From Candidatus Bathyarchaeota archaeon (GTDB taxonomy: Archaea > Thermoproteota > Bathyarchaeia > Bathyarchaeales > Bathycorpusculaceae), in NCBI GenBank assembly GCA_026014485.1, contig JAOZIE010000014.1, forward strand, positions 893 to 64,892: 64,000 bases of DNA. Reading direction: 5' to 3'. Below, piece after piece: positions 64 to 30,758 of the stretch (its first letter is position 1; every line of letters begins with the position of its first letter). The notes beneath the pieces were generated by a model. The model saw only the letters and a program-made list of their open reading frames with translations. It was not told where the DNA came from and made no database searches. The position numbers and the translations under genes are program-made.

Positions 64-258
64 TTAGGGGGCACACTTGAGCTCCTCGAGAGTAGCGCAT
101 GCTCCTTTCTTCATCTCTTGCACTGGAACGATTTATTTCGCTGATTTTTTTCTGCTCATAGAACCTTCTGGTAACGCCTGTATGACTACTTCTTCAATTA
201 TGTCTTCGATGACTCTAAGTCTCTCATTTACCCGCCTGACTTCGTATAGATCATTTCA
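64..258 (-). pseudogene. RelB-like antitoxin remnant with in-frame stop
   Basis: The minus strand from base 252 to 64 reads as one frame of 63 codons broken by a single TAA around base 139. The first part, with VNERLRVIEDIIEEVV and QALPEG, and the second part, QEMKKGACATLEELK, match the pattern of short archaeal RelB-type antitoxins: a coiled-coil start followed by EMKKG..TLEEL. No start codon lies in frame. An ATG sits one base out of frame at about base 254, with a stop directly upstream. A broken antitoxin gene is the simplest explanation. The call rests on pattern similarity only. Confidence 0.45.
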
Positions 259-313
259 AGAGTAACTTGACTTCCCAGCGATATCCCACAAATAAGAATG
301 GAAAGGCACGCTT

Positions 314-346
314 ATAAGAATAATCACGCAAAACAGTTATTCTTAT
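314..346. repeat. 10-bp perfect inverted repeat
   Basis: ATAAGAATAA at 314-323 and its exact complement TTATTCTTAT at 337-346 are separated by 13 bases. It lies in a gene-free stretch between the end of the DUF58 gene (470) and the toxin-antitoxin remnant. It may be a weak terminator or an operator. The AT-rich stem has no clear poly-T tail. Confidence 0.5.
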
Positions 347-469
347 TTCAGACAGTTACATGTCACCAAGAAAAAGCTGCTAACCTTGTCACTTTGGATG
401 CTTTTTTCTTTCTCTTTGCTTTGGTTCCTTGAATTGTGTGTTTTCCCGCTGTACCCGTTGTATAGTGCG

Positions 470-2020
470 CTAATTGTTTCCAACCAGAATGGTGTTATAC
501 CCTTTATCTCTTAGTTTTTCAATGGTTAATGTCAATTCTTCGTCGCCGCTGTTGAAGGCAGCGATAACAGTTAAAGTGGCTGGTGGCTTGACAGCATCAA
601 CCATTTTGGCTAACGCCTGTCCTGATGGATGACGTGATGCAGCCATCTGGTTTGCTTCAACCTCCAGCTTTAAAATCTCAATCAACTTACGTGACGCGTT
701 AGAATTTGTACGTTCGAGTTGATCGATAGATCGTTTTATTCTGCGGAGTTGCGGTAACTCTAAGACCTTTACTGACGGTTCAGCAAACACTATTTTTTCA
801 GTTAACTCCAAAGTTTTTTTCAGGGCTTCCCTTGGGTTTATTGGGAATGTTGTTGCTAAAACTTCTTTGTAATTGTAGGCGGCTAATGCAGTTGGCACCG
901 CTTCAGTAGCTAACGTTAACGCTGCCATCACAAAGTTATACGCAAGCATATCTGCTTCTTCGGCGTCTTTAGCTGTTAAATCGGCAACTAGCAATGCGGT
1001 GTTCCCCTGTGCACCAGAGAACTCCTTAACAATTAGTTCCCCAAACAAATAGCTGTGTTTCCAATCAAGGTCTTTCCATCGGTCTCCAGGTTGAAACTGG
1101 CGGCTACTATAATACTCCACACCTGCTTTTGAAGTTATGGCAGATTTAGCCGAAGGCATGGCTGCTGATGAACCTGTTCCAGGTGAGGTTTGCTGTAGAT
1201 ATTTGTTGGCCAGCCATTGTGCATACTTCGCCCTAGGGATAATGTGTAACTCAAGGGGCTCCAAAATTTGTGCCGTCTGAATCAAGCCGCGGGGGTCTAC
1301 AGTCATGGCTTGAACTTGAAGCTTTGATGGTCCAGCCAAAGGCGGTGTAAACCGTAGGTCCATCTGTATCTCGTCTTGACCAGAAAAAATGAACTCTGAC
1401 GGTTCAACGTGAATCCATGATTTCTCTGACGACAAAGCGGCAAAAAGTGGCATACCCGTGTTAATTTTGACATTAACCGCGTTAGTAGCGGTTTTGCCCG
1501 CCACAACTCTGTTCCATGTTTTGGATTCCTCGAAGGGTTTTTTGGGGATTTTTACGAAAATATGTGCCAAAGCAAAAGATAGATAGCCGCTTAAGACAGC
1601 TGAAGTTACAATTAATGTTACATTCCAAACCAGAATTGAAGCAGTAAAAAAAAGAAGCAAACCCGCCCCCAACGCTTTCAAAACTGCTGTTGGGCTTCTC
1701 CCAGTTTTTACAAAGGCAAGACGCTGAGTTGACGAGTAATCCTTTAGGCTTTGATCTAAAAGCAGCAAAGCCGGAACCATAAGTAAAACAGAAAGAGCTT
1801 CGCCCAAAAAAGCCTCAAGCGCCAAGGGCATAAAAACCAATGAGCCGATAACCACCACTAACTCTACCCTTGCTCTCGGCGGTTTATATACTAAAACCAC
1901 TTGAACAGCAAGCAAAACAATTGCTATGCCTAACTGTGGCAGCGGAGAAACCAAGACCGCCAGCAAGAGCACTATTATAAGGTATGCTTTGGCAACGGTT
2001 TTAATGGTTAACGGTTTCAT
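470..2020 (-). CDS. DUF58 domain membrane protein
   Basis: A 516-residue protein. Several hydrophobic segments fill roughly residues 8-150, followed by a beta-rich region and then the DUF58 signature around residues 302-322 (YYSSRQFQPGD followed by DLDWKHS). The part after it resembles a von Willebrand A fold, starting at LLVADLTAKD. DUF58 proteins are regularly encoded beside MoxR ATPases, and that is the case here: the moxR-like gene ends 24 bases upstream on the same strand. The family is thought to work with MoxR in maturing or assembling protein complexes, but its exact role is unknown. It is the last gene of a six-gene minus-strand run. Confidence 0.9.
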   Translation of the reverse strand: MKPLTIKTVAKAYLIIVLLLAVLVSPLPQLGIAIVLLAVQVVLVYKPPRARVELVVVIGSLVFMPLALEAFLGEALSVLLMVPALLLLDQSLKDYSSTQRLAFVKTGRSPTAVLKALGAGLLLFFTASILVWNVTLIVTSAVLSGYLSFALAHIFVKIPKKPFEESKTWNRVVAGKTATNAVNVKINTGMPLFAALSSEKSWIHVEPSEFIFSGQDEIQMDLRFTPPLAGPSKLQVQAMTVDPRGLIQTAQILEPLELHIIPRAKYAQWLANKYLQQTSPGTGSSAAMPSAKSAITSKAGVEYYSSRQFQPGDRWKDLDWKHSYLFGELIVKEFSGAQGNTALLVADLTAKDAEEADMLAYNFVMAALTLATEAVPTALAAYNYKEVLATTFPINPREALKKTLELTEKIVFAEPSVKVLELPQLRRIKRSIDQLERTNSNASRKLIEILKLEVEANQMAASRHPSGQALAKMVDAVKPPATLTVIAAFNSGDEELTLTIEKLRDKGYNTILVGNN

Positions 2021-2043
2021 AAATCCGTCATCAGTTTGTTGAA

Positions 2044-3000
2044 CTAAATTTTTGGAACGGGAACGCTCTGGAGGACTCTTTCTGCTACCATCTTAGGTGT
2101 TATGTCTTCCATTTCAGCTTCGGGTTTAACGCGTATCCTATGAATCAAGACGTAGAGAGCCAACCTTTTGACGTCGTCAGGTATCACATAGTCTCTTCCT
2201 TGTAGAAATGCCATGGCTCTGGAACCTTTGAAAAGGGCAATTGTAGCCCGTGTGCTTGGCCCTGACAGTATATCTGGGTCTTCTCTGGCGAGCCGTACTA
2301 AAGAAACTACGTAATCTCCCACTTCATCTGAAACATGGACCTTTCTTATGGCTTCTTGAAGTTCTACGATTTCGTTAAGTGACGCTACAGGTTTGACATC
2401 GGGCTCTTCGATGTAATCTAACCTTGCGATAACCTGTTTTTCATCTTCTTTTGATAAATAGTCGCTCCAAACCCTGAACATGAACCTGTCAGCCTGCACT
2501 TCAGTCAGCGGGTATGTGCCCTCTGAACCAAAAGGTAATTGGCTTGCAATTATGATGAACGGTCTGGGTAACAGCTGAGTTATCCCTTCAACGGTGACTT
2601 GCCGCTCTTGCATTGCTTCGATCAACGCGGCCTGTGTTCTTGGGGTCGTACGGTTTAATTCGTCGGATAAAACCACATTTGCAAACAGTGGACCTTCCAT
2701 GAAACGGGATTTGCCGTCGGGAGTATACAGGTAAAACCCTGTTACGTCGGCAGGTAACATGTCAGGCGTGAACTGGATCCTTTTGAAGTCCCCTCCGATG
2801 ACCTGAGAAAAGGTTTTGGCAAGCAAGGTTTTTGCTGTTCCAGGCAACCCCTCGATTAGGACGTGTCCTTCGCTTAGTAAGGAAATCAAAATCATTCCTT
2901 TGATTTCGTCTTTTCCTACCACAACTTTTGATACTTCATTTAATATTTTGCCTGGAATCGTCGAAATGTCTCTATTGTCTTGACCCATTTTCCCCATCAA
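2044..3000 (-). CDS. MoxR family AAA+ ATPase
   Basis: A 318-residue AAA+ protein with Walker A GLPGTAKT at residues 51-58 and Walker B VVLSDE at about 109-114, followed by the family-typical LNRTTPRTQ. The length fits MoxR. MoxR ATPases act as chaperones that load or mature partner complexes, often with DUF58 or VWA-domain partners, and the DUF58 gene follows directly. Its start overlaps the end of the DUF4350 gene by 29 bases, so translation is probably coupled. A second in-frame ATG lies four codons inside. Confidence 0.95.
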   Translation of the reverse strand: MMGKMGQDNRDISTIPGKILNEVSKVVVGKDEIKGMILISLLSEGHVLIEGLPGTAKTLLAKTFSQVIGGDFKRIQFTPDMLPADVTGFYLYTPDGKSRFMEGPLFANVVLSDELNRTTPRTQAALIEAMQERQVTVEGITQLLPRPFIIIASQLPFGSEGTYPLTEVQADRFMFRVWSDYLSKEDEKQVIARLDYIEEPDVKPVASLNEIVELQEAIRKVHVSDEVGDYVVSLVRLAREDPDILSGPSTRATIALFKGSRAMAFLQGRDYVIPDDVKRLALYVLIHRIRVKPEAEMEDITPKMVAERVLQSVPVPKI

Positions 3001-3874
3001 TCCGCCAAATCGGTTTTAATGATAAAACCAATATCACCGCTATTAAGCTTAGCGCCCCCAACGGTGAAGCTGCGATTCCGTAGACTGATGCGAGAATTTC
3101 CTTAGCACCATCTAACGGCACTTTGGGTAAATGTGTTTGGTCAACAAAAACTTGATTAACATCCTTCAGGGATAACACGTTTTGAATGAATTGTTGGTTG
3201 TCACTAATTCCTATCATCCCATTAATCAGAATGCTAGGATCAGAAATTGCAACAAGGTAGCCTTGGTCTAATTTGGCGTAAGCGGCAACAGGCAAAGGTC
3301 CAGTGGACTCATCTGTATCCCAAGAACCATCCGCGTTTAGGTCGAGGAAGCTGAACTTGGAAGAATACGCCACGACGGTGACATCAGTAGTGGTGTTCAA
3401 GCTGGAAGCATGGTTGAAAACTATGCTGCTTACATTTTTTGCAATTGGGGTGTTCGTAAACTCTGTTATCTCAGGGAGCCACTTGTTCTTGTAGTCAAAC
3501 AAGGGGTCCAAAAGTGGCTTATCGATAAATCTCAAGTTCAAGCCTATCGCACTGAGAATTTGGTTTCCATAGCCATAATCATCAAGTACTGTCAGTATTC
3601 CGCCATTTGAAACATAACTCCTGAGTTGGGTGAGTTCAGCCTCAGAAAACGGTTCATAGGGTATTATGAATAGGGTCGTGCCATCAGGGTCGGACGGTAA
3701 ATCTGAAAACGACTCAATCGGTTCTGCATTCATTTGGGAATTAAACTCTGATATTCCATTCCAAAAAGGGTTCTCAGCTCTGAAGTTGCCGTTTGCGGGG
3801 AAAAACCATATCAGGATGGCCATAGACAGCACAATAATTAACATAATTGTGAGCAGGAGTTTGCCTGTTTTCAT
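2972..3874 (-). CDS. DUF4350-like membrane protein
   Basis: A 300-residue protein with an N-terminal membrane segment (about residues 5-25), a soluble domain containing DGTTLFIIPYEPFSEAE and a GGILTVLDDYG loop, and a C-terminal membrane segment around residues 260-285. This matches DUF4350 proteins, which have a glutamine-amidotransferase-like outer domain (YVSNGG pattern) and occur next to MoxR and DUF58 genes. The gene overlaps moxR downstream by 29 bases and the large Ig-like protein upstream by four bases. Function unknown; probably part of the same membrane complex. Confidence 0.8.
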   Translation of the reverse strand: MKTGKLLLTIMLIIVLSMAILIWFFPANGNFRAENPFWNGISEFNSQMNAEPIESFSDLPSDPDGTTLFIIPYEPFSEAELTQLRSYVSNGGILTVLDDYGYGNQILSAIGLNLRFIDKPLLDPLFDYKNKWLPEITEFTNTPIAKNVSSIVFNHASSLNTTTDVTVVAYSSKFSFLDLNADGSWDTDESTGPLPVAAYAKLDQGYLVAISDPSILINGMIGISDNQQFIQNVLSLKDVNQVFVDQTHLPKVPLDGAKEILASVYGIAASPLGALSLIAVILVLSLKPIWRIDGENGSRQ

Positions 3875-5826
3875 TTTTCCAGAGCCTCCACTATTGTTGC
3901 AGCAAGAGTTTCCGCTTTTGTTACATCCTGTGTTTCTGTGGGGTAGGCTGAATAAAGGGTTCTTTCAGTCAGCGCAGTAAGTTTAGTGAACTCATCTGGC
4001 GCCTCAAGTAACTTCGTTTTCGTTTCCTGCAAAAACTCACGTAACGTCATCTGGGGCTGAAGAACGCACCCTGTTATTGACTCGACAATCCTCAAGGCTT
4101 TGGCATATGCTTCTACAACTTTGCCTTTTTCGCCTTCAAACTTGTATTCAGGTTTAGCTGGAATTGGCGTAGTGTTTTCTTTTTCTGGCGGTTGAACTTC
4201 TTTTTCTGGAAATGCTTCAAGTTTATCTTCTGCTTTTTTACGCTTGGGTCTAGCGAATCTCAAGTAAAACACCGCCCCCACAGAAATAAAAGCAATAGAC
4301 GCAAAACCCACGTTAGCGCTGTTTACTATAAAGATGCTTGTTTTGGTTTGTGTGTTAGCCTGCCATGGCTCATGTGGCTCAACTGTGATATCTAAATCTT
4401 GGGACCCCACAAACATCGCGTTTAAGGGTATGCTTAATGTGGCATTGAATGTTCCATCTTGCATACTCGTAACTGTAACGGATATATCAGCAAATGTTAC
4501 TGTTACTTCAGCGTTTTCGAGCGGGATTGTTGCCGAACTCACCATTCCCTCTATATGTATTTCTGCTGGAAGCAGCACAAAGGACGGTGCATGAACATCT
4601 ACTTTTGAAGTCAACTTTGTTACGTTTACTGTTCTTTGTTGGCTTGTGCCTGCATAAACTCCTGCGGAACTAACGCTCACCGCTACTTGGTGTGGCCCTG
4701 TTTTAGCATTATCGCTAACCGTGAATTGAACCTTATATATTCCCGCTGAATCTGTCTGAACACGCGCCACGAAGTTATTGTCAAAACGCACGCTAACCTC
4801 TCTTCCGCTTAACGGCGCATTCTGTTGGGTGGTAACTTTACCGTTTACCGATAATGGCAACCCTGGATAACTTATGACTGGAACTGAAACGCTAAGAACG
4901 GTTTCATAAAAAAGAACTTCAACCACCACTGAACCTGACGACCCCAAATAAGTGCCTTTGTCGCCTTCCGTGGGTGTGTATACTGCTTGTACAGTGATTG
5001 AATGAATATACTTGTAGGGCACCTGAATAATCGCATAGTAGGAGCCATCGGAATTTGTTGTTACCTTCGTGACCTGTGAATCATCCAAAAGTAGCGTCAC
5101 GGTTCTGTTTTGAAGACCTTGTCCATCAGTTGTTAACTTTCCTGTTGCTGCTAAGAATCCTCCAACAAAACAGCTTGTTGCATTCAAGTTTAAGCTCACT
5201 GAAGTTGCCTGAAGCTCTTCAATTTTGATGTTTTCGGCTTGTTGGTTCAATCTCTGCAAAAGCGCGTGGTATTCATCTATGAGGTCTTTTAGTCTTTGAA
5301 GAAGGCTCTCAAGTTGATTATATGTCTGTCTCAATTTGTTTTCAGCAGTTGCCGCAAAAACACCTAACCGTTGACTCAAGGTTGACGTTGCATCTTGCAG
5401 GTCTTCCAAAAGAATCTGCGTTTTAGCTACCAGAAATCCCGCTTGGTCAAGAACTTGGTCCGCCTCGTTCAGCCGGTACTGATCCAGTAGATATGATGCC
5501 TTATCTAAGCTGATTTCAAGGTCGCTTAAGACCTGAATTAACTCCTGAGTTAGATTGTTGTACCTGTTAATTATGTAGCTTACATCCTCAGGCACCGAAA
5601 TGTGGGATAGCTGTTCTGTTAATGCGCTTGCGTTTCCATATTGCTTCGCCGAGATAAGAGCGAGGATTTCCACATACTGTGACAGGAAAGAATACGCATC
5701 TAGCACACTTTGGGCGGCGGCTGGGTCTTCATGCGGAACAAAAGCAGGTTCAGCTTTAACTACCGTGCAAGGAAGCAGCATCGACGCAACCATAACCAAT
5801 ACCAGAACAACGGCTAACCGCCTCAT
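3871..5826 (-). CDS. Secreted/anchored protein: coiled coil, Ig-like domains, DUF4129-like tail
   Basis: A 651-residue protein. A signal peptide (about residues 1-25, hydrophobic and ending in VKA) is followed by a helical, glutamine- and leucine-rich region (40-215) with coiled-coil character. Two or three beta-sandwich repeats of the carboxypeptidase-regulatory or Ig-like type follow (GKLTTDGQGLQNRTV, GKVTTQQNAPLSGREV, GMVSSATIPLENAEV). One membrane segment at about 503-523 precedes a charged linker and a cytoplasmic C-terminal domain resembling DUF4129 (TLREFLQET...TERTLYSAYP). DUF4129 proteins are standard partners of MoxR/DUF58 clusters. This is the likely surface-exposed member of the complex. 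Confidence 0.75.
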   Translation of the reverse strand: MRRLAVVLVLVMVASMLLPCTVVKAEPAFVPHEDPAAAQSVLDAYSFLSQYVEILALISAKQYGNASALTEQLSHISVPEDVSYIINRYNNLTQELIQVLSDLEISLDKASYLLDQYRLNEADQVLDQAGFLVAKTQILLEDLQDATSTLSQRLGVFAATAENKLRQTYNQLESLLQRLKDLIDEYHALLQRLNQQAENIKIEELQATSVSLNLNATSCFVGGFLAATGKLTTDGQGLQNRTVTLLLDDSQVTKVTTNSDGSYYAIIQVPYKYIHSITVQAVYTPTEGDKGTYLGSSGSVVVEVLFYETVLSVSVPVISYPGLPLSVNGKVTTQQNAPLSGREVSVRFDNNFVARVQTDSAGIYKVQFTVSDNAKTGPHQVAVSVSSAGVYAGTSQQRTVNVTKLTSKVDVHAPSFVLLPAEIHIEGMVSSATIPLENAEVTVTFADISVTVTSMQDGTFNATLSIPLNAMFVGSQDLDITVEPHEPWQANTQTKTSIFIVNSANVGFASIAFISVGAVFYLRFARPKRKKAEDKLEAFPEKEVQPPEKENTTPIPAKPEYKFEGEKGKVVEAYAKALRIVESITGCVLQPQMTLREFLQETKTKLLEAPDEFTKLTALTERTLYSAYPTETQDVTKAETLAATIVEALEK

Positions 5827-6125
5827 AGAAAACTAACCCCCACCAGTATTTCCAGCACCTTCATAGTCACGATAACAACGAAAATGCCGAAAAGCGCATA
5901 GCCGATGATGTTTACCGTCTTCTGAGCCTTTGGATTAAAAGGCGAATGCAGAAGCGTCAGTATGAAGTACTCAACAATGTACAAGGAAACGTACAGGTCC
6001 AAGCCGCTTGTAGGATAAAATGATAACGCAAAAGTGGTTAACGCGTAAGCAACCGTTAATGAAATTACGTATCTCTCTGGAATTTTCAGGGGAGCCGCCC
6101 CGTTAACTTTAGCGTGATAACGCAT
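5823..6125 (-). CDS. Small four-helix membrane protein
   Basis: A 100-residue protein with three or four hydrophobic segments (about residues 20-40, 44-60, 72-95) and no recognisable family motif. It starts inside the last 40 bases of the gene upstream and its stop overlaps the start of the next gene, so it is firmly embedded in the six-gene operon. The overlaps on both sides and its hydrophobic composition support it as real. Presumably a membrane subunit of the MoxR/DUF58-associated complex. Confidence 0.7.
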   Translation of the reverse strand: MRYHAKVNGAAPLKIPERYVISLTVAYALTTFALSFYPTSGLDLYVSLYIVEYFILTLLHSPFNPKAQKTVNIIGYALFGIFVVIVTMKVLEILVGVSFL

Positions 6126-6841
6126 TTTCCTTTGCTGTATTCCTCGCGTTCGACAGCAATAGGTTTATCCAAAACTTCAGCCACAACCGACGCCACTATG
6201 GACGCAAATGGGCTTCCCAAGCTTTCGTAAACCCACATTTTACGGTACTCCAGCCGTGGGTTCGAAATTTCAACGCGAATTAGCCCCTCTTCCTTGGTCA
6301 CTCTTATGCCATCTGCCAAATTAATCGTGCCTACAAGGACAAGCGTGACAGCAGTCTCTAAATCTCCTTCTGTAGCATCAGTTTTAGCCGTGACCATTCC
6401 CGCAACGGCTGAGCCCGGAGTTGTGACAAGTAACCCCAAATCCTCGGCGTCTGGACCGTGCTTCACGATTAGACGCTTGGGTAGAATAATGTTTTCAAGT
6501 TGAGGCGGATGCGGATTTGAATGCAGAGGAATTAGCGCTTGAGGTTTCCCCGCGGTCATGGAAGACGGTACGTAAACAGCTTTTGCCTTCAGCCCCAACT
6601 CCTCTACAATAGCTGAAACATTTTCTACTCCTGACTGCAGAAGGATTGCACTAGCTTCAGGAGGGATCTTCGGTTGTCCTTTACCCAATGCTAACGAAAC
6701 TCCACTTAAGATTACAGTGGAGAATCCAAGAGCCGTAAGTGGTGTTGACTGTAAAATGACGTAGGATATTAGCGAAAGCGATAATCCTGCCAAAGTCAAG
6801 CAGAGACCAAGCAACGTAAACGAATTTCTAATTGTCTTCAC
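6086..6841 (-). CDS. Membrane-anchored protein of unknown function (first gene of the MoxR/DUF58 operon)
   Basis: A 251-residue protein with a GTG start. Two N-terminal membrane segments (about residues 8-28 and 32-50) are followed by a soluble alpha/beta domain with ILPKRLIVKHGPDAEDLGLLV and VTTPGSA. The layout resembles small archaeal membrane proteins with a cytoplasmic domain, but I cannot name the family with certainty. A GGTG stretch about seven bases before the GTG could serve as ribosome binding site. It opens the operon, with a TATA-like box about 80 bases upstream. Confidence 0.7.
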   Translation of the reverse strand: MKTIRNSFTLLGLCLTLAGLSLSLISYVILQSTPLTALGFSTVILSGVSLALGKGQPKIPPEASAILLQSGVENVSAIVEELGLKAKAVYVPSSMTAGKPQALIPLHSNPHPPQLENIILPKRLIVKHGPDAEDLGLLVTTPGSAVAGMVTAKTDATEGDLETAVTLVLVGTINLADGIRVTKEEGLIRVEISNPRLEYRKMWVYESLGSPFASIVASVVAEVLDKPIAVEREEYSKGKCVITLKLTGRLP

Positions 6842-7411
6842 TATTTACACCGAAGGTGATTTAGGAGTTAGCTATTCTTTTTTGCCATGTCTCCTATTTT
6901 ACTCTCTATGGGTATCGTTCCTTTTAATAAAGCTTAAAGTTTTTGCTTAAGAAACCAATAGAATTAAAAAAGCGAACTGTAACCGCGATGCTCCAGTGAG
7001 TTACGGTAACATCAAGAAGATCCGTTTGGAGTAGTAGTCTTTTGGGCTATACCCTTTTAATTAACCAAATTGGCCAGAATGATGTTCTGTTTCGTCGCTT
7101 TATAGACCCCGAGAACTGCTGGCGAACTGTGGCAAATTCCGAGAAAATGTTGGCTCACGTAAGCCAGCGTAACAAAAAACAGTGTTTTGCCGTGAGTTTT
7201 TTAATCTTTTTCTCTGTGTGTGGGCAAAAGCGTGGATGTTGTAACGGCACTGGGGATAAAAATGCTGCACAAATGAAGGCTTTGACAGCCACATATAGGT
7301 TAGTTAAGGAGTAATAGCTACTGGCGCGGGCAGAAGTGCTTTTCTCAGCTTCACTCCCCAAGGGTAGCCAACATTGCAGGAATCAGTCTGTGAAAGATTT
7401 GTCCAGCTTGA
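6842..7411. other. Gene-free gap of about 570 bases
   Basis: No convincing coding frame. Reading frames here are short, start with TTG and have atypical composition. A small hairpin lies in it (TGGCT, loop, AGCCA, around 7150-7166), and the flanks contain GGCAAA and TTTTGCC, which could pair over some 60 bases. No tRNA, SRP RNA or RNase P RNA signature was seen on either strand. It separates two minus-strand genes, so it must hold the promoter of the six-gene operon and the end of the DUF1616 transcript. Confidence 0.5.
6920..6930 (-). promoter_or_regulatory. Possible TATA box of the MoxR/DUF58 operon
   Basis: On the minus strand TTATTAAAAGG lies about 80 bases before the GTG start at 6841. 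It is the best TATA/BRE-like stretch in the upstream gap and would give a leader of roughly 50 bases. Assigned by composition and position only. Confidence 0.35.
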
Positions 7412-22798: not shown

Positions 22799-24085
22799 TC
22801 ATTTTTTTGAATTAGCCTTGTGCTTTTTCTTTAACAAAACCGCAGCTAGCGCTCCTGCGGCAACAAGGACCGCCGTAGCTGCAACCCAATACGTGTTTGC
22901 TTGCCCGTCTGAGTCTTTGTCTGAGGTGGTGGCTGTGGGTGTTGCTGGCGCAGGTTTTGAGGGTGAAGAGTTTGGTTGCTGTGTTGGGGAAGTTGTTGGG
23001 TGGGTTGTGGGCGGCGTTGTCGGTGTTTGTGTGGGGGTTGGTGTTGGTGCCTTGGTTGATGTTGGTGTTGGTTTTGTGGTGTCTGGTGTTGGTGAAGGGG
23101 ACGGCTGGCTTGTGTTGTATCCGATTGGTGTGTATATTTCGTTGGCGTCGGTTGTAGAGATTGGGTACCAGCCTCCTCCGATTGCGTATAAGCGGTCATC
23201 TAGAACGGCTATGGCTAATCCTGTTCGTGCGGTGGGCATTGAAGCCCCAACAGTCCATGTGTCTGTTTTGGGGTCGTAGACTTGGTTATGGCTAAAAGGA
23301 ATAAAAACGCCCCCGCCGACAACGTATATTCTTGGAGGTGCATGGCTGCCTACTGTTACAGCAGCGGCTGACTCTACTAGATTTTCGCTAATCGGAACTG
23401 AGGCTTTTTGTAGCCATTCATCGTTTTTTGGATTGTAGACTTGTAGTGCGTTGCCGCTTGTGCCTCCTATTATGTAGATTTCGTTGTTGTATACTGCTGA
23501 AGTGTGGTAGGCGACAGGGGTTGGTGCTGATTTTTTTGTGCTCCATGTGTCTGTTTGGGGGTCGTATTCTTCGGTTGTGTTTGAATAGTCTGGTAGGTAC
23601 AGTGATTTGGTGCCTCCGATGGCGTAGATTTTGCCGTCTACTGTGTTTGCTGTTGTTGTGGTTCTGTTTGTGGGCATTGGTGTTTTTGTTTGCCAGGTGT
23701 CGGTTTTGGTGTCGTAGGCTTCGACTACTGCGATTGCTTCCAAATGTGTACCCTGCATATGGGTGCCTCCGATGCAGTAGATTTTGCCTTCGTAAACGGC
23801 TATGCCAAAGTCTGCTCTAGCTGTTGGCATGTCTGCTTTTGGGGTCCACGTGTCTGTGGTGGGGTCGTACATTTCGTTTGTTGATAAGTAGCCGCCGCCT
23901 TTGCCTCCGATGGCAAATATCTTGCCATCAACGGTTGCTACGCCTAGGTCACTTCTAGCTGTAGGCATGACTGCCAGCGGGCTCCAGCTGTTATCCGATG
24001 AATAGCAAAAGACGTTTGGCGCGGTGGATAAGAAAAGAACCAAAACCAGCGCGGCTGATAACGTCACCAGACAGGAGTTCTTCAT
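22799..24085 (-). CDS. Anchored extracellular Kelch-repeat protein (Kelch 1)
   Basis: A 428-residue protein. Signal peptide (about residues 1-27), then about six Kelch repeats of some 50 residues, with units such as DGKIFAIGG, EGKIYCIGG, DGKIYAIGG, NNEIYIIGG and DDRLYAIGGG each preceded by a PTxR element. These should fold into a beta-propeller. A Pro/Thr/Ser/Gln linker (about 325-390) leads to a C-terminal membrane segment (YWVAATAVLVAAGALAAVLL) and a short lysine tail KKKHK. A surface protein held by a C-terminal anchor. Its upstream region carries a 53-base element also found before the surface gene at 38641. Confidence 0.85.
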   Translation of the reverse strand: MKNSCLVTLSAALVLVLFLSTAPNVFCYSSDNSWSPLAVMPTARSDLGVATVDGKIFAIGGKGGGYLSTNEMYDPTTDTWTPKADMPTARADFGIAVYEGKIYCIGGTHMQGTHLEAIAVVEAYDTKTDTWQTKTPMPTNRTTTTANTVDGKIYAIGGTKSLYLPDYSNTTEEYDPQTDTWSTKKSAPTPVAYHTSAVYNNEIYIIGGTSGNALQVYNPKNDEWLQKASVPISENLVESAAAVTVGSHAPPRIYVVGGGVFIPFSHNQVYDPKTDTWTVGASMPTARTGLAIAVLDDRLYAIGGGWYPISTTDANEIYTPIGYNTSQPSPSPTPDTTKPTPTSTKAPTPTPTQTPTTPPTTHPTTSPTQQPNSSPSKPAPATPTATTSDKDSDGQANTYWVAATAVLVAAGALAAVLLKKKHKANSKK

Positions 24086-24109
24086 TCCCGCTCAATCAAT
24101 ATTGGGTGT

Positions 24110-24162
24110 GGCCGCTTTTAGCTCTCCCTGCAGAACACCATCGTTCCCCCTCCAGAACAACC
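24110..24162 (-). promoter_or_regulatory. Shared upstream element A, copy 1
   Basis: A 53-base stretch about 25 bases before the ATG of Kelch 1. It matches 38668-38720, about 27 bases before another surface protein gene: 34 of 40 bases agree over 24110-24149. In both copies the half-sites GAAC, GTTC and GAAC are spaced by exactly 6 and 8 bases (24133-24136, 24143-24146, 24155-24158). The conserved core contains TTAGCTCTCCCTG on the plus strand. It could be a DNA operator or an RNA element in the leader. Confidence 0.65.
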
Positions 24163-24167
24163 AAAAA

Positions 24168-25820
24168 CTAAATGCCTTTTCCCCGTTTCTTTTTGAGTAA
24201 GGCTGCAGACAGAACTCCTGCGGCGACAAGGATAGCTACTGTTGTTATCCAGTGTGTGTTTGTTTGCCGGTTTGGGTTGTTGTTTGTTTGGGTGGTGGGT
24301 GTTGTTATGGTGAAGTTTACGGTGGAGGTTGCTGTGTTGTTGTGGTTGTCTGTGGCGTGTATGGTTAGGTTGTGGGTGCCTGGGGTTAGGTTTGTGAGGG
24401 TGGTGTTGCCTGTTAGGGGTTGGTTTTGTTGTCCGTTTAGGTTGTAGGTGGTTGTGGCTGGTTTGTTGAGGGTGTACTTTAACGTCACGTTTCCCGTCAT
24501 GTAGGTTTGGTTGTTTATTGGGGAGTGAACCTGCAGCGTAGGCGGCATCGTGCCGTACCCAAGCGGCGTGTAAACTTCAACTGTGTCCGTCGCCTGCCCC
24601 GGTAGGACAAAACTCGTCAAACCGCCACCAATCGCAAACAGTTTATCCTCCACTACTGCAACAGCCAAATGTCCACGTGCAGTAGGCATATCTGTTGCGG
24701 TGCCCCAAGAATCCGACTCTGGGTCATAAACCCAGTTCTGGCTAATGGCTTCGTAGTTTGCGAGCCCATGGACTATGTATCCTCCTATGACATAGATTCT
24801 TTTTGGTGCATATTTTCCGGTGGTTGCCCCAATACCCATAGATATGGCGCCAACATCGAGGTTGATTAGTTCTTTGGGAATTGGGCTGCCGTTGCTCCAA
24901 GAATCATTATTTGCGTCATAAATGTGGACTGATCTGCCGCCTTCAGCTATGATGTATATTTTGTCGTTTATTGCGGACGATACGTAGCCTGCTGGCCAAT
25001 AGGGTATTTTAGTTTTGTTTGTCCAGGAATCTGTGGTGGGGTCGTATACTTCTGTTGCTTCTCCGCTTATGAGGTAGATTTTTCCGTTTGCCACGTTTGC
25101 GTCGATGTTTCTTCTTGCCTTTGGCAGGGCTTGTTTTGTTTCCCAAGTATCAGCTTTCGCGTCGTAAACTTCGTTCACGGTTGATGGCTCTGAATTCACG
25201 ATGGTTGTGGCTGGGATAAACCAGTATTTTTGTCCACTTATCACGTACACCTTGTTATCTATCGCTGCTATAGCGTAGTCTATTCTTGGGGTGGGCATGG
25301 TTGTTTTTTGGGTCCAGTTGTCTGTTTGGGGGTTGTACATGTAGGTGGCTTCTTTGTGGAAGACGTATATTTTGTTGTTAACGGTGACTGCTTTTCCGCC
25401 GGTTAGTGTTTTGGGTAGGAGTGTTTTGTTTTTCCAGGTGTTTTCCTCCAAGGCGCGGGGGGTTGTTGTTTGTGTAGATGTTTGTGTGGCTGTTTGTGTT
25501 GGGGTCTGTGTGGGTGTGTTTGTGTTTATGTTGAATTGTGTTTGGGTTGTTAGGGTAAATGTCACTTGGTTTATGTGGTGTGTTGTGTTTTGTGGGGAAG
25601 TGACTGTAAAAGTTTCGTAGGGGGGATAGTTTATTTTTCCAGTGGTAGGGTCATAGGGGTTTGCGTAGGCAAAACTGGAAATCATCGCTTCACTTGCTGC
25701 CATACCAAGCAACAAACTGGCTGCGAGGATGATGACTGCGGTTCGTTTTTTCTGTTTCATTTTGTGCAGGAAAAACACGTTTGTCTTGCTCCTGCTGTTC
25801 AATTGGGTTGAGGTTTGCAT
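24168..25820 (-). CDS. Anchored extracellular Kelch/Ig-like protein (Kelch 2)
   Basis: A 550-residue protein. The ATG at 25820 gives the longest frame. The ATG at 25760 gives a more normal signal peptide (MKQKKR followed by a hydrophobic run), and neither has a ribosome binding site. After a Thr/Gln-rich linker come about six Kelch repeats (NNKIYVF, DNKVYVISG, NGKIYLISG, NDKIYIIAEGG, EDKLFAIGGG). An Ig-like domain follows (LQVHSPINNQTYMTGNV...LTPGTHNLTI), then a Thr/Asn linker and a C-terminal membrane segment with KKKRG. The anchor closely resembles that of Kelch 1, which lies 82 bases downstream. A TATA box and two palindromes precede it. Confidence 0.85.
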   Translation of the reverse strand: MQTSTQLNSRSKTNVFFLHKMKQKKRTAVIILAASLLLGMAASEAMISSFAYANPYDPTTGKINYPPYETFTVTSPQNTTHHINQVTFTLTTQTQFNINTNTPTQTPTQTATQTSTQTTTPRALEENTWKNKTLLPKTLTGGKAVTVNNKIYVFHKEATYMYNPQTDNWTQKTTMPTPRIDYAIAAIDNKVYVISGQKYWFIPATTIVNSEPSTVNEVYDAKADTWETKQALPKARRNIDANVANGKIYLISGEATEVYDPTTDSWTNKTKIPYWPAGYVSSAINDKIYIIAEGGRSVHIYDANNDSWSNGSPIPKELINLDVGAISMGIGATTGKYAPKRIYVIGGYIVHGLANYEAISQNWVYDPESDSWGTATDMPTARGHLAVAVVEDKLFAIGGGLTSFVLPGQATDTVEVYTPLGYGTMPPTLQVHSPINNQTYMTGNVTLKYTLNKPATTTYNLNGQQNQPLTGNTTLTNLTPGTHNLTIHATDNHNNTATSTVNFTITTPTTQTNNNPNRQTNTHWITTVAILVAAGVLSAALLKKKRGKGI

Positions 25821-25886: not shown

Positions 25887-26100
25887 TGCCCACAAAACAG
25901 CCGAAAAACGCTAATGCACAAAACACCTTTCTATGTTTTCTTCATCAGTTGCTTTTCTGGTTGCTTGCGTCAGCTTTATCGTTTTTGATAGTGCAATATG
26001 TGTTTGGGGAAGGCAAAATTATTTTAGAAGGTGAAGCAAGAGAACTCCTGTTTAACAGTCACATCAGGGAAGTCTATTTGGGGCTTTGGGGAACAGTGTG

Positions 26101-27420
26101 ATGAGTGACAGCAAGTATTGGAATAAAACCGTAGAAACTATGCCTAGAAAGCAGCTTAGGGAACTGCAGTATAAGAAGCTTAAATCTCAAGTCAGGCACT
26201 GCTATGATAACTCGCCTTTTTATCAGAGAAAATTCAAAGCCGCAGGCATCACGCCCGCCAGCATAAAATCGTTGGATGACTTATCCAAAATTCCTTTCAC
26301 CGTGAAAACTGACCTGCGGGACAACTACCCCACGGGTTTGGTTGCGGTGGACTCCGCCGAGGTGGTTGAGATTCACGCTTCCAGCGGAACCACAGGAAAC
26401 CCCATAATTGGGGCATACACTAAAAGCGACATGGAAGCTTGGCAGGAGATTATGGCGCGGTCAATCTATACGGCTGGGGGACGCAGAGAAGATGTCATAC
26501 ACATTGCCTATGGCTACGGTTTGTTCACAGGTGGGTTAGGATTTCATTATGGCGCTCAAAAAGTCGGCGCAGAAATTGTTCCCGCCAGTAGCGGAATGAC
26601 GCAGAGGCAGATAAAACTCATGAAAGACCTTGGCGTCACGATACTCTGCTGTACCCCAAGCTTTGCCGTTTACCTCGCTGAAACCATGAACACCATCGGC
26701 GTTAACCCCCGCAAAGACCTCAAGCTGCGACTCGGCTTGTTCGGCGCTGAACCCTGGTCCGAGCGGACACGTCAACGCGTAAACGAGGCTTTAGGCATAG
26801 ACGCCTTTGATGTCTACGGGTTAACAGAGCTGTGCGGACCAGGCGTCTCAATGGAGTGCCCCGAGCATAACGGTATGCACATCTGGGAAGACCACTTCAT
26901 CGTAGAGACAATTGATCCCGAAACAGGCGAGGTTTTGCCTGAAGGCGAAGAAGGCGAGCTGGTTTTCACGCCGCTGTCGAAAATGGGGATGCCGATTCTG
27001 CGGTACCGAACACGTGACATTTCAGTTATAGAAACGGATATGTGCCCCTGCATGCGGACTCACTCCCGTATGATGAGGGTCAGCGGAAGGTCAGATGATA
27101 TGCTTATCATACGCGGCGTCAACGTGTTTCCGTCCCAAATCGAATACGTTATCATGGGGTTCCCCGAGTTAGCTACTCAATACGAGATACACGTCGACCG
27201 ACCTGACGCGCTAGACACCTTCGCCGTGAAAGTTGAGTTAAACGAGGAATACTCCAAAAGCAGCTGCGTGAACCTAAACGACCTTAAACGCCGCATACTC
27301 AGCAAAATCAACAACATCACTGGGCTGAACCCTGAAATCCACATTTTAAAGTACGGTGAACTTGCACGGACAGAGGGCAAAGCCAAACACGTTTTTGATA
27401 ACCGAAAGGGGAAAACCTAA
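26101..27420 (+). CDS. paaK: Phenylacetate-CoA ligase family enzyme
   Basis: About 439 residues from the ATG at 26101. Adenylate-forming enzyme with the AMP-binding loop SSGTTGNP near residue 94, YGLTELCGPG, and the C-terminal hinge region RSDDMLIIRGVNVFPSQIE, all diagnostic for PaaK. It activates phenylacetate, indoleacetate or similar arylacetates to CoA thioesters using ATP. The iorAB genes follow 14 bases downstream. In methanogens the same pair makes arylpyruvates from arylacetates for aromatic amino acid synthesis; in fermenting archaea the flow is towards arylacetates. Confidence 0.93.
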   Translation: MSDSKYWNKTVETMPRKQLRELQYKKLKSQVRHCYDNSPFYQRKFKAAGITPASIKSLDDLSKIPFTVKTDLRDNYPTGLVAVDSAEVVEIHASSGTTGNPIIGAYTKSDMEAWQEIMARSIYTAGGRREDVIHIAYGYGLFTGGLGFHYGAQKVGAEIVPASSGMTQRQIKLMKDLGVTILCCTPSFAVYLAETMNTIGVNPRKDLKLRLGLFGAEPWSERTRQRVNEALGIDAFDVYGLTELCGPGVSMECPEHNGMHIWEDHFIVETIDPETGEVLPEGEEGELVFTPLSKMGMPILRYRTRDISVIETDMCPCMRTHSRMMRVSGRSDDMLIIRGVNVFPSQIEYVIMGFPELATQYEIHVDRPDALDTFAVKVELNEEYSKSSCVNLNDLKRRILSKINNITGLNPEIHILKYGELARTEGKAKHVFDNRKGKT

Positions 27421-27434
27421 AGGATCAAAAGCTG

Positions 27435-29630
27435 ATGGTTTCAAAGATTGCCGCAAACAAGCCTAACAGTTACTTGCTGTTCAACGGGGACGAAGCAGTT
27501 GCACGCGGCGCATTGGAAGCAAACGTCAAAGTAGCCGCTGCTTACCCAGGAACCCCTTCAACCGAGATTTTGGAAGCTATAGCTGGCGTCGCCAAGCAGT
27601 TTGGCATCTACGCTGAATGGAGCATAAACGAAATTGTCTCCATGGAAGTGGCGGTGGGTGCGTCCATGGCGGGAGTCCGCTCCATCGTGTCCATGAAGCA
27701 TGTGGGCTTAAATGTGGCATCAGACGCCGCGATGACTCTGGCATACACAGGTGTCGTAGGCGGCTTAGTTATTGCCGTATGTGATGACCCAGCAATGCAC
27801 AGCAGCCAAAACGAGCAGGACACCCGATACTTTGCCGTGCACTCTAACATTCCCCTGTTGGATGCAGGTAGCCCCCAAGAAGCCTACGAAATGACCCGTG
27901 ACGCTTTTGAACTCAGCGAAAAACTGCAGTTGCCCGTGATTGTGCGGTTAACCACCCGCGTCGCCCACGGAAAAGCCCGCGTTCAAATCCGCGAATTCCA
28001 AGACCTCCGCCGAGACGCCAAGTTCGACAAGGATGGCCCCAAATGGGTTATGGTTCCCCAGAATGCGCTTCGTCAGCACCGCGTACTGAAGGGCAGGTTG
28101 GCTGAGGCGGCGCGGTTAGTTAACGCATCTAAGTTTAACGTTTTAGAAGACAACGGCAAAGATGTGGGTATAATTGGTAGCGGCATTGGCTTCTACCACG
28201 CTAAATCCCTGCTGAACCCCCAGCAGTTTTCTTGGCTGAAACTAGGGTTTGTTTACCCGTTTCCCCGTGAACTCGTCAGGAAATTTGCCTCTAACCTCAA
28301 AAAACTCATCGTGGTTGAGGAACTGCGCCCCTACGTGGAGGATAACCTGCGCGGCTTAGACGTGGAGATTCTGGGAAAAAACCAGCTTGGGCTGGATGAA
28401 ATCGGCGAGTTCAGCCCCGACGGGTTAAGAGACGCCTTCGCCAAGCTTGGCTTCGCCGACCCCGCCCAAAAACCCGTTTGCCTCGACTTGCCCCAGCGTC
28501 CCCCTGGCTTGTGCCCTGGGTGCCCTCACCGAGCCTTCTACTATGCTTTAGACACGGTTAACCAATTCATCAAGTGCGACGCGGACAAATGCAGCGGCTG
28601 CGAAATCTGCGAGTACGTCTGCTCCGCGGAAAAAGAGCATGTGTTTAACCCAAGTAAATCCCGAATCCGCGCCTTAAGACTGAATGTGCTCTTTAACATG
28701 GCGGTGACCTGCCGAGCCTGCATAGATGCTCCCTGCGTGAAGGTTTGCGCCCGAGACGCGCTGAGTCAATCTAAGGAAAATGGGGTCATAATTGTTGATG
28801 AGAGCAAATGCGATGGATGTGGCTGGTGCATTGAAGCCTGCGAATATGGCGCCATGACCCTGCATCCTGTAACCCGCAAAGTCATGGTCTGTGACATCTG
28901 CGGCGGCGAACCCGCATGCATCACGGAATGCCCCGAATCAGCATTGACTTTCGCTGGCAGGTCAGACGACAAGGTGGTGGCTGGTGACATAGGCTGCTAC
29001 ACGCTGGGTTGTTTGCCGCCTGTAAGTGCTGTGCAAACCTGCTTGTGCATGGGCGCGGGGATTTCGCAGGCTGCAGGCATGGTTCACGCGGGCGTGAAGG
29101 ACAAGGCGTTTGCGGTTATTGGTGACTCCACCTTTTTCCATGGGGGCATGCCTGGGCTACTTAACATCGCCTACAATAAGGCCAACGTTTGCGTGGTGGT
29201 TTTGGATAACAGGACGGTTGCCATGACGGGGCATCAGCCTACGCCTGAGTCAGGCAAAACCGCCATGGGCGACGACGCTAAAACCGTTAAGATTGCTGCC
29301 ATCGCAAAAAGCTTAGGCATAGACAAAGTTAACGTTGTTGACCCCTACGATATTGAACAAACCCGACAGTTGCTGCGGGCAACTATGGATTTTAAGGGTC
29401 CAAGCGTCATAGTTGTTGAGCGCCCCTGCCCCCTTAAAATCGAGAAAGGTGCTGTTAGGCAGGTTCAAGACTCCTGCAATGGATGCGGCGTCTGTGTGAA
29501 GGCTTTCGGGTGCCCTGCTATATCGTTAACTGTGGAGCGGGCAGAGATTGACCCGACTCTGTGTGCTGGCTGCGGCGTGTGCGAGCAGGTTTGTCCCTTT
29601 GACGCGATAAGGAGCATCGAGCAGAAATGA
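27435..29630 (+). CDS. iorA: Indolepyruvate ferredoxin oxidoreductase alpha subunit with inserted ferredoxin domain
   Basis: 731 residues, about 100 more than usual. Residues 1-360 form the pyrimidine-binding and middle domains (AAAYPGTPSTEI, SMKHVGLNVASD). The thiamine diphosphate domain begins with LCPGCPHR (360-366) and continues with GDIGCYTLGCLPP and GDSTFFHGG. Between these two parts, about residues 380-512, a ferredoxin domain with 16 cysteines in four clusters is inserted (CSGCEICEYVC, CRACIDAPCVKVC, CDGCGWCIEAC, CDICGGEPACITEC). The normal 2[4Fe-4S] tail ends the protein. IorAB oxidatively decarboxylates arylpyruvates to aryl-acetyl-CoA, reducing ferredoxin. The iorB start overlaps its stop. 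Confidence 0.93.
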   Translation: MVSKIAANKPNSYLLFNGDEAVARGALEANVKVAAAYPGTPSTEILEAIAGVAKQFGIYAEWSINEIVSMEVAVGASMAGVRSIVSMKHVGLNVASDAAMTLAYTGVVGGLVIAVCDDPAMHSSQNEQDTRYFAVHSNIPLLDAGSPQEAYEMTRDAFELSEKLQLPVIVRLTTRVAHGKARVQIREFQDLRRDAKFDKDGPKWVMVPQNALRQHRVLKGRLAEAARLVNASKFNVLEDNGKDVGIIGSGIGFYHAKSLLNPQQFSWLKLGFVYPFPRELVRKFASNLKKLIVVEELRPYVEDNLRGLDVEILGKNQLGLDEIGEFSPDGLRDAFAKLGFADPAQKPVCLDLPQRPPGLCPGCPHRAFYYALDTVNQFIKCDADKCSGCEICEYVCSAEKEHVFNPSKSRIRALRLNVLFNMAVTCRACIDAPCVKVCARDALSQSKENGVIIVDESKCDGCGWCIEACEYGAMTLHPVTRKVMVCDICGGEPACITECPESALTFAGRSDDKVVAGDIGCYTLGCLPPVSAVQTCLCMGAGISQAAGMVHAGVKDKAFAVIGDSTFFHGGMPGLLNIAYNKANVCVVVLDNRTVAMTGHQPTPESGKTAMGDDAKTVKIAAIAKSLGIDKVNVVDPYDIEQTRQLLRATMDFKGPSVIVVERPCPLKIEKGAVRQVQDSCNGCGVCVKAFGCPAISLTVERAEIDPTLCAGCGVCEQVCPFDAIRSIEQK

Positions 29631-30220
29631 CGCTGGACTTAATCTTCACTGGCATAGGCGGACAGGGCGTTGTGGTGCTAAGCGACATCTTCTGCGAGGC
29701 AGCTTTGCTGGACGGCTTTGACGTGGCGAAAGCGGAGATTCATGGGATGGCTCAACGAGGCGGCTCCATAAGCGCGCATGTTCGAGTCGGCGAAAAGGTT
29801 CTGTCTCCCTTGATTGAACAAGGTAAAGCCGATGTAATCGTCGGGTTTGAGGTGCTTGAGACCGCGCGGGCGTTAACCATGCTTAAACCGCAAGGCACCG
29901 TAATTGTAAACACGAAGTATATTCCGCCAAGCGGGCAACTGGTGGGTTCAACTAAACCGCTTACGACTGAAGCGCTGCTTGCAATAATTCAGGAAGGCGC
30001 ACTCAAAGTCCACCAAGTGGATGGACTTGCCCTCGCTGGTAAGCTGGGGAACTTCATGGTGGTGAACACTATCCTGTTGGGCGCGGTTTCCGCTCTTCCC
30101 AATATGCCTCTAAAAGAAGCGTCTTTTCAGGAGGCTATTGCAAGCAGGCTTAAAGAGAAGTATATCAAGCTGAATCTAAAGGCATTCCAGTTAGGTCGCG
30201 AAAACGTGTTATTAGTTTAG
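29627..30220 (+). CDS. iorB: Indolepyruvate ferredoxin oxidoreductase beta subunit
   Basis: A 197-residue gamma-type subunit of 2-oxoacid:ferredoxin oxidoreductases, with TGIGGQGVVVLSDI at the start and EIHGMAQRGGSISAHVRVG near residue 38, both typical of IorB. It completes the IorAB enzyme encoded with the overlapping upstream gene (ATGA). The length is normal for the family. Confidence 0.95.
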   Translation: MTLDLIFTGIGGQGVVVLSDIFCEAALLDGFDVAKAEIHGMAQRGGSISAHVRVGEKVLSPLIEQGKADVIVGFEVLETARALTMLKPQGTVIVNTKYIPPSGQLVGSTKPLTTEALLAIIQEGALKVHQVDGLALAGKLGNFMVVNTILLGAVSALPNMPLKEASFQEAIASRLKEKYIKLNLKAFQLGRENVLLV

Positions 30221-30395: not shown

Positions 30396-30758
30396 ATGAG
30401 GGGAACGGATAGCTTCAGAGAACACTTAGGCATCGAATGCATCGAAGTCAAAGAAGGCTACGCAAAAATGGTCATGAAGGTCACAAAGCAACACACTAAC
30501 TCGCTGGGCTTCACACATGGCGGCGCAATTTTCTCGTTAGCCGACTGCGCCTTCGCGGAAGCCGCGAACTTCGGGGATGCCACCGCCGTAGCGGTACAGG
30601 TGAACATAAACTTCTTCCGACCCACCAAAGAAGGGGATTTGTTAACGGCAGAAGCCAATCTGGTCTCTGAAGGCAAAACGTTTGGTTTATACAACATTAC
30701 AGTTTGTAAGGAAGAAAAAATCGTGGCGTTTTTCTCTGGATTATCCTGCAGACATTAG
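30396..30758 (+). CDS. paaI: PaaI-family hotdog thioesterase
   Basis: A 120-residue hotdog protein. TNSLGFTHGGAIFSLADCAFAEAAN contains the HGG and acidic residues of the PaaI/YdiI active site, and VNINFFRPTKEGDLLTAEA is typical of the family. PaaI enzymes hydrolyse aryl-CoA esters, in keeping with the PaaK and IorAB genes directly upstream. It could release free arylacetate or clear dead-end CoA esters. Confidence 0.88.
   Translation: MRGTDSFREHLGIECIEVKEGYAKMVMKVTKQHTNSLGFTHGGAIFSLADCAFAEAANFGDATAVAVQVNINFFRPTKEGDLLTAEANLVSEGKTFGLYNITVCKEEKIVAFFSGLSCRH

Follow-up and report, generated by a model that had tools for sequence, protein, structure and literature searches.

The 2-oxoacid oxidoreductases are usually credited with a single electron exit, in which one or more accessory clusters pass electrons to free ferredoxin. 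Within these enzymes a CXGC motif ligates the proximal [4Fe-4S] cluster, and in the crystallised OFOR2 of S. tokodaii (StOFOR2) free ferredoxin was modelled as contacting that loop, at 14 Å from cluster to cluster (PMC5020499). Domain V of a pyruvate:ferredoxin oxidoreductase (DaPFOR) is a built-in ferredoxin through which the proximal cluster passes electrons to the surface (PMC5020499). Among the tungsten aldehyde oxidoreductases (AOR), the subunit AorA of AOR-Aa carries electrons from the cluster of the tungsten enzyme, with 11.9 Å between FS1 and FS0 and all steps below 15 Å, and filament formation by AorA of Aromatoleum aromaticum is mediated by a C-terminal helix (PMC10413684). Another relevant protein is PadI, the beta subunit of phenylglyoxylate dehydrogenase, whose layout we take from the coordinates of the NF045766 profile: a four-cluster ferredoxin (profile 5–140) precedes an intact thiamine (TPP) domain (profile 143–436) in one chain.

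The stretch of DNA analysed here (hereafter the window) comprises 64,000 nucleotides from a Candidatus Bathyarchaeota archaeon. At 27435–29630 on the forward strand, which carries all window features below unless marked otherwise, it encodes an IorA, the alpha subunit of indolepyruvate:ferredoxin oxidoreductase, of 731 aa with an internal four-cluster ferredoxin domain (matches to TIGR03336, POR_N, TPP_enzyme_C and Fer4). The protein scores 694.2 bits against the IorA profile TIGR03336 (curated cut-off 650.9), split over two stretches, the profile match breaking at position 375. Its POR_N domain (aa 25–189; 27507–28001; PF01855, 2.2e-20), the TPP-binding domain that resumes after the insert (aa 518–661; 28986–29417; PF02775, 1.2e-23) and the C-terminal 2[4Fe-4S] ferredoxin domain (aa 675–727, with C681...C720; 29457–29615; Fer4/Fer4_7) stand in the order of IorA, and iorB adjoins. 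It is a genuine IorA, departing from the family in that its TPP domain is interrupted by about 134 aa between C363 and C521, whereas this domain is unbroken in all conventional IorA in the comparison.

The inserted domain, which is of the type found in AOR subunits, occupies 28560–28973 (aa 376–513); 28560–28975 translates without a stop as residues 376–513 and contains 17 cysteines. Sixteen of these fall into four motifs (386/389/392/396, 426/429/434/438, 459/462/465/469 and 486/489/495/499), preceded by C381. When 38 insert-type IorA were aligned with 30 conventional ones, all 17 cysteines were invariant in 38/38, and the same columns were gaps in every conventional protein. The first-pass annotation, which had described an insertion of about 130 residues with 16 cysteines in the TPP domain and a retained C-terminal 2[4Fe-4S] domain, was right on both counts, apart from overlooking the additional conserved C381; its statement that standard IorA passes directly from CPGCPHR to GDIGC was mistaken, as these motifs are typically 14–18 residues apart in conventional IorA, and up to about 26. 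Allowing for this native loop leaves a net insertion of about 134 residues. The insert has diverged faster than its host, with a mean pairwise identity of 58% against 72–73% for the host domains. Its dN/dS in close pairs is 0.05–0.15, and by this measure it is under purifying selection.

The place of the insertion is identical in all 38 proteins and begins 12–13 residues after C363 and ends 8 before C521. C360 and C363, in the CPGC motif (28512–28523), are the first two ligands of the TPP-proximal cluster, and C521 of GDIGC (28995–28997) and C665 (29427–29429) are presumed, from family spacing, to be the third and fourth; all four are invariant in insert-type and conventional IorA alike (68/68). 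Since C360 and C363 precede the insert and C521 and C665 follow it, the ferredoxin would lie between the second and third ligands of the proximal cluster. In the 2-oxoacid oxidoreductase family the ligands of the proximal cluster correspond to these four cysteines, and the total of six clusters in the earlier annotation therefore falls one short: the ligand motifs predict seven [4Fe-4S] clusters per insert-type IorA (one proximal, four in the insert and two C-terminal), against three in the conventional form.

Searches with the insert point to the AOR electron-transfer subunits as its kin. In the Protein Data Bank (phmmer), the single best match is 9mqx_E, a chain named as an Fe-S-cluster-containing hydrogenase subunit, and matches to 6x1o_B (3.6e-26) and 8c0z_C (8.1e-23) belong to AOR-family subunits according to their chain names; we take 6x1o to be an AOR-family electron-transfer subunit. 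Of the two kinships proposed in the first-pass annotation, that with AOR ferredoxin subunits is the nearer, hydrogenlyase proteins of HycB type scoring lower. The insert shares with AorA (8c0z_C) and 6x1o_B four 4-Cys motifs in the same order at significant similarity, and they are among its best sequence relatives; it differs in being an internal domain of IorA instead of a separate subunit encoded beside an AOR gene, and in having no C-terminal extension after the last motif. AOR-linked ferredoxins with a readable tail continue for 25–33 residues beyond that motif, whereas in the insert the chain re-enters the TPP domain, so polymerisation in the manner of AorA would not be expected. A cysteine equivalent to C381 before motif 1 is present in all inserts, but in only 8/40 AOR-linked ferredoxins.

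Similarity to close archaeal stand-alone ferredoxins amounts to 47–62% identity, and an AOR gene adjoins 40/53 of the stand-alone relatives read. The closest paralogue in the window genome, at 59% identity, is a stand-alone ferredoxin directly after an AOR-family gene; a second (53%) is preceded by a different AOR gene, in an operon that also contains VhuG/VhuA hydrogenase genes, and a third (50%) is long-tailed, with no neighbouring AOR. An operon at L106 (G000:C11:122000-135000, 154–7037) encodes HdrC/HdrB-like and VhuG-/VhuA-like proteins, a maturation protease, an AOR-family enzyme and a four-cluster ferredoxin, which suggests an electron link between hydrogenase and AOR. A second class of stand-alone four-cluster ferredoxin, with a C-terminal tail of about 65 residues, is exemplified at L107 (G000:C23:6000-20000, 6549–7175, reverse strand), where it shares a region with Hox-like hydrogenase genes; ferredoxins of this class are present in many Bathyarchaeia and have no AOR neighbour. 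In a tree of 91 domains, which has few columns and an uncertain root, the 38 inserts are set apart by one branch (100/99) from the 52 close stand-alone domains; L108, a distant sequence, falls outside both.

The best NCBIfam match of the insert is to PadI (80.9 bits against a cut-off of 700, over the ferredoxin part only), which is the closest precedent for insert-type IorA. Both join a related four-cluster ferredoxin to the TPP domain of a 2-oxoacid oxidoreductase in one chain; the window protein nevertheless falls outside the PadI family, scoring below the cut-off and having TPP-domain sequence on both flanks of the ferredoxin, whereas in PadI the ferredoxin stands ahead of the domain. The window genome has a separate gene, probably of PorB type, that is matched by the TPP part of the PadI profile (143–436). 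Domain V of DaPFOR resembles the insert as a built-in ferredoxin, but it has two clusters and is joined elsewhere in the chain, and IorA already has its C-terminal two-cluster domain.

The explanation that we favour, at somewhat better than even probability, is that the insert works as a permanent wire for electrons beside the proximal cluster and provides an additional exit. The gene would encode a working, putative arylpyruvate (indolepyruvate-type) ferredoxin oxidoreductase, predicted to convert arylpyruvates to arylacetyl-CoA while reducing ferredoxin, whose TPP domain acquired its four-cluster ferredoxin from the electron-transfer subunit of a tungsten AOR. The insert would sit beside the proximal [4Fe-4S] cluster, at the loop where free ferredoxin normally docks, electrons would move among TPP, the proximal cluster and the insert, and the far end of the insert would complement the C-terminal 2[4Fe-4S] domain as a further exit, towards an external ferredoxin or another enzyme. 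Several observations argue for such a wire: the insertion falls exactly between the proximal-cluster cysteines, in the same place in 38/38; the 16 ligand cysteines and C381 are invariant while the rest of the insert varies under apparent purifying selection; the insert is akin to AOR wire subunits, with the short steps described for AorA (PMC10413684); the equivalent loop of StOFOR2 is the modelled ferredoxin contact (PMC5020499); and PadI offers a comparable fusion. The position and ancestry of the insert make a second or different electron exit plausible, and electrons may, as the first-pass annotation suggested, reach a partner other than free ferredoxin. Architecture, conservation, kinship and operon come directly from the data; we infer that the clusters are occupied, that the insert lies close to the proximal cluster and that the second exit is used, with partner and direction as proposed here.

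Other observations count against the wire. AlphaFold2 gave the full chain a pLDDT of 76 overall (26 sequences), with about 40–75 per block of the insert, and the insert alone a mean of 38 (14 sequences); because confidence in the insert is low, the models yield no distance between it and the proximal cluster. In a Foldseek search the full-chain model matched the PFOR/OFOR family with a poor overall fit. The retained C-terminal ferredoxin domain implies that the normal route is not replaced, a truncated copy described below suggests that the full insert may be dispensable for the fold, and no insert-specific partner gene was found except PaaK, a non-redox protein.

That gene is part of a conserved neighbourhood. 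In the window, a gene for a PaaK-like (phenylacetate-CoA ligase-like) protein (26086–27420; TIGR02155 546 bits, below the cut-off of 646.3) lies upstream of iorA; IorB (29627–30220; PF01558 3e-37, best NCBIfam matches to IorB) overlaps the end of iorA by 4 bases; and a PaaI-like hotdog thioesterase (30396–30758) scores 114.3 bits against TIGR02286 (cut-off 118.9) and above the cut-off of TIGR00369. PaaK is encoded directly upstream of 36/38 insert-type IorA, as opposed to 0/21 conventional archaeal IorA with room for it; of the two exceptions, one has room but no PaaK (L056) and the other lies at a contig end (L057). IorB is on the same strand in 37/38 insert-type loci, and a thioesterase follows the cluster in several relatives. 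The enzyme may oxidise arylpyruvates in amino-acid fermentation, or run in reverse together with PaaK; the window genome has an EPSP synthase, so aromatic amino acids can probably be synthesised de novo, and the enzyme need not work in reverse. At three related loci (L066 2380–11489, L068 10835–14254 and L083 5878–9259), IorB and the thioesterase are separated by genes of LivK, LivH and LivM type, with LivG/LivF-type genes located upstream at L066; these names, of the branched-chain-amino-acid-type ABC transporter, were assigned by reading the sequences. Liv-type genes are absent beside the window cluster, and a LivM query of the window genome gave no match. Two adjacent kelch-repeat-like proteins, probably surface-anchored, are encoded upstream of the window cluster on the reverse strand (22799–25820).

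An alternative use of the same ancestry is that the insert acts as a docking adaptor, bound by an AOR catalytic subunit (or a hydrogenase or Hdr module) in an IOR-AOR complex that shares electrons directly and couples arylpyruvate oxidation to aldehyde or acid turnover. We regard this as unlikely. The nearest relatives of the insert are indeed ferredoxins encoded beside AOR genes, the window genome possesses the two AOR and ferredoxin pairs described above, one of them in the VhuG/VhuA operon, and the NPxKSRI region is preserved in most inserts; however, no AOR match was found adjoining insert-type IorA in the loci read, the insert lacks the tail of about 25–30 residues of AOR-linked ferredoxins, and a long, strongly supported branch separates the insert group from all AOR-linked ferredoxins. 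One may go further and picture IorA as a hub, with arylpyruvate oxidation wired without free ferredoxin to a docked AOR or hydrogenase, or with the insert and the C-terminal domain each delivering part of the electrons to a partner of its own, a scenario that we likewise consider unlikely.

It is also conceivable, with little probability in our estimation, that the extra clusters are an electron store or a structural shield, buffering electrons or covering the proximal cluster against oxygen while free ferredoxin would continue to receive electrons from the C-terminal domain. This 2[4Fe-4S] domain has been kept, its eight cysteines being present in 37/38 insert-type IorA (the remaining protein ends at a contig end), and in DaPFOR oxygen stability has been connected with coverage of the proximal cluster (PMC5020499). 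Sixteen invariant ligand cysteines would be superfluous in a shield, however, and record titles of the insert-type archaea (termite gut, permafrost soil, sediment) suggest habitats that are mostly anoxic.

The distribution of the insert bears on whether it has a function at all. Matches to the window protein at E<=1e-100 place insert-type IorA in 41/257 Bathyarchaeia genomes, of 8 genera and two families, at 59–79% identity; an IorA-type match was present in 148 of the same genomes. Among the matches listed, conventional IorA had an unbroken profile alignment, and the insert-type proteins were uninterrupted except for a second copy in G134 that misses part of the insert. Both IorA types occur together in a few genomes (G030, G122 and G124). 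In a sample of the phylum, 22/398 genomes matched at the same threshold, all of one family, compared with 215/398 with an IorA-type match; within the phylum the insert is thus not a common trait of IorA, and no insert was found in the other IorA of the phylum nor in the bacterial IorA compared. The rarity anticipated in the first-pass annotation was borne out by this search, as by the 30/30 conventional IorA without the insert. A GTDB scan of one genome per species, which reaches close relatives only (the systematic sampling covering one phylum), recovered insert-type loci (L066–L083) only under the names Bathyarchaeota, Bathycorpusculum, Bathyarchaeum or broader archaeal names for the same group. 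Three apparent fusions in which CPHR seemed to run into a ferredoxin (L092, L096 and L102) were rejected as located in RnfB-type genes, and an IorA with a split profile match (G224:C7) has no insert, merely a somewhat longer native loop. Five genomes of family f10 (G061, G065, G070, G077 and G080) have their IorA-profile matches inside open frames of about 1200–1250 aa, which suggests that this family has a different, longer fused form.

A tree of IorA from which the insert had been removed united the 38 insert types in one group (100/100), consistent with a single insertion that was then inherited vertically. Such a single origin would also be compatible with a neutral fusion fixed by descent, tolerated and without an electron-transfer role, as would the truncated copy in G134. 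This second IorA (L155, G134:C54, 2039–4024) lacks about 73 residues of the insert through an in-frame deletion; motif 1 and the end of motif 3, which share a CEY sequence, are joined at that point. The copy adjoins IorB and not PaaK; we treat it as a lead only, since the G134 genome is 9% contaminated. A neutral fusion appears highly improbable, though, given the 17 invariant cysteines in 38/38, the low dN/dS and the retention of the insert across 8 genera. An assembly chimera or binning artefact, which the 26-contig draft state of the window genome might have invited, can effectively be discarded together with chance, because the identical fusion, boundaries and unbroken frame recur in 41 independent genomes of 8 genera at 59–79% identity, and in records named Bathyarchaeota and Bathycorpusculum, and because the insert has a dN/dS of 0.05–0.15 in close pairs.

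Our literature search, whose coverage excluded most subscription journals, found no description of the insert, and a survey of termite-gut Bathyarchaeia gives Ior as an ordinary ferredoxin reducer (PMC7886697). The insert is relevant to how the metabolism of Bathyarchaeia is read. More broadly, insert-type IorA demonstrates an exchange of domains between IOR and AOR systems, and as a variant conserved throughout a clade it offers a natural test for a second or dedicated electron exit in the 2-oxoacid oxidoreductases.
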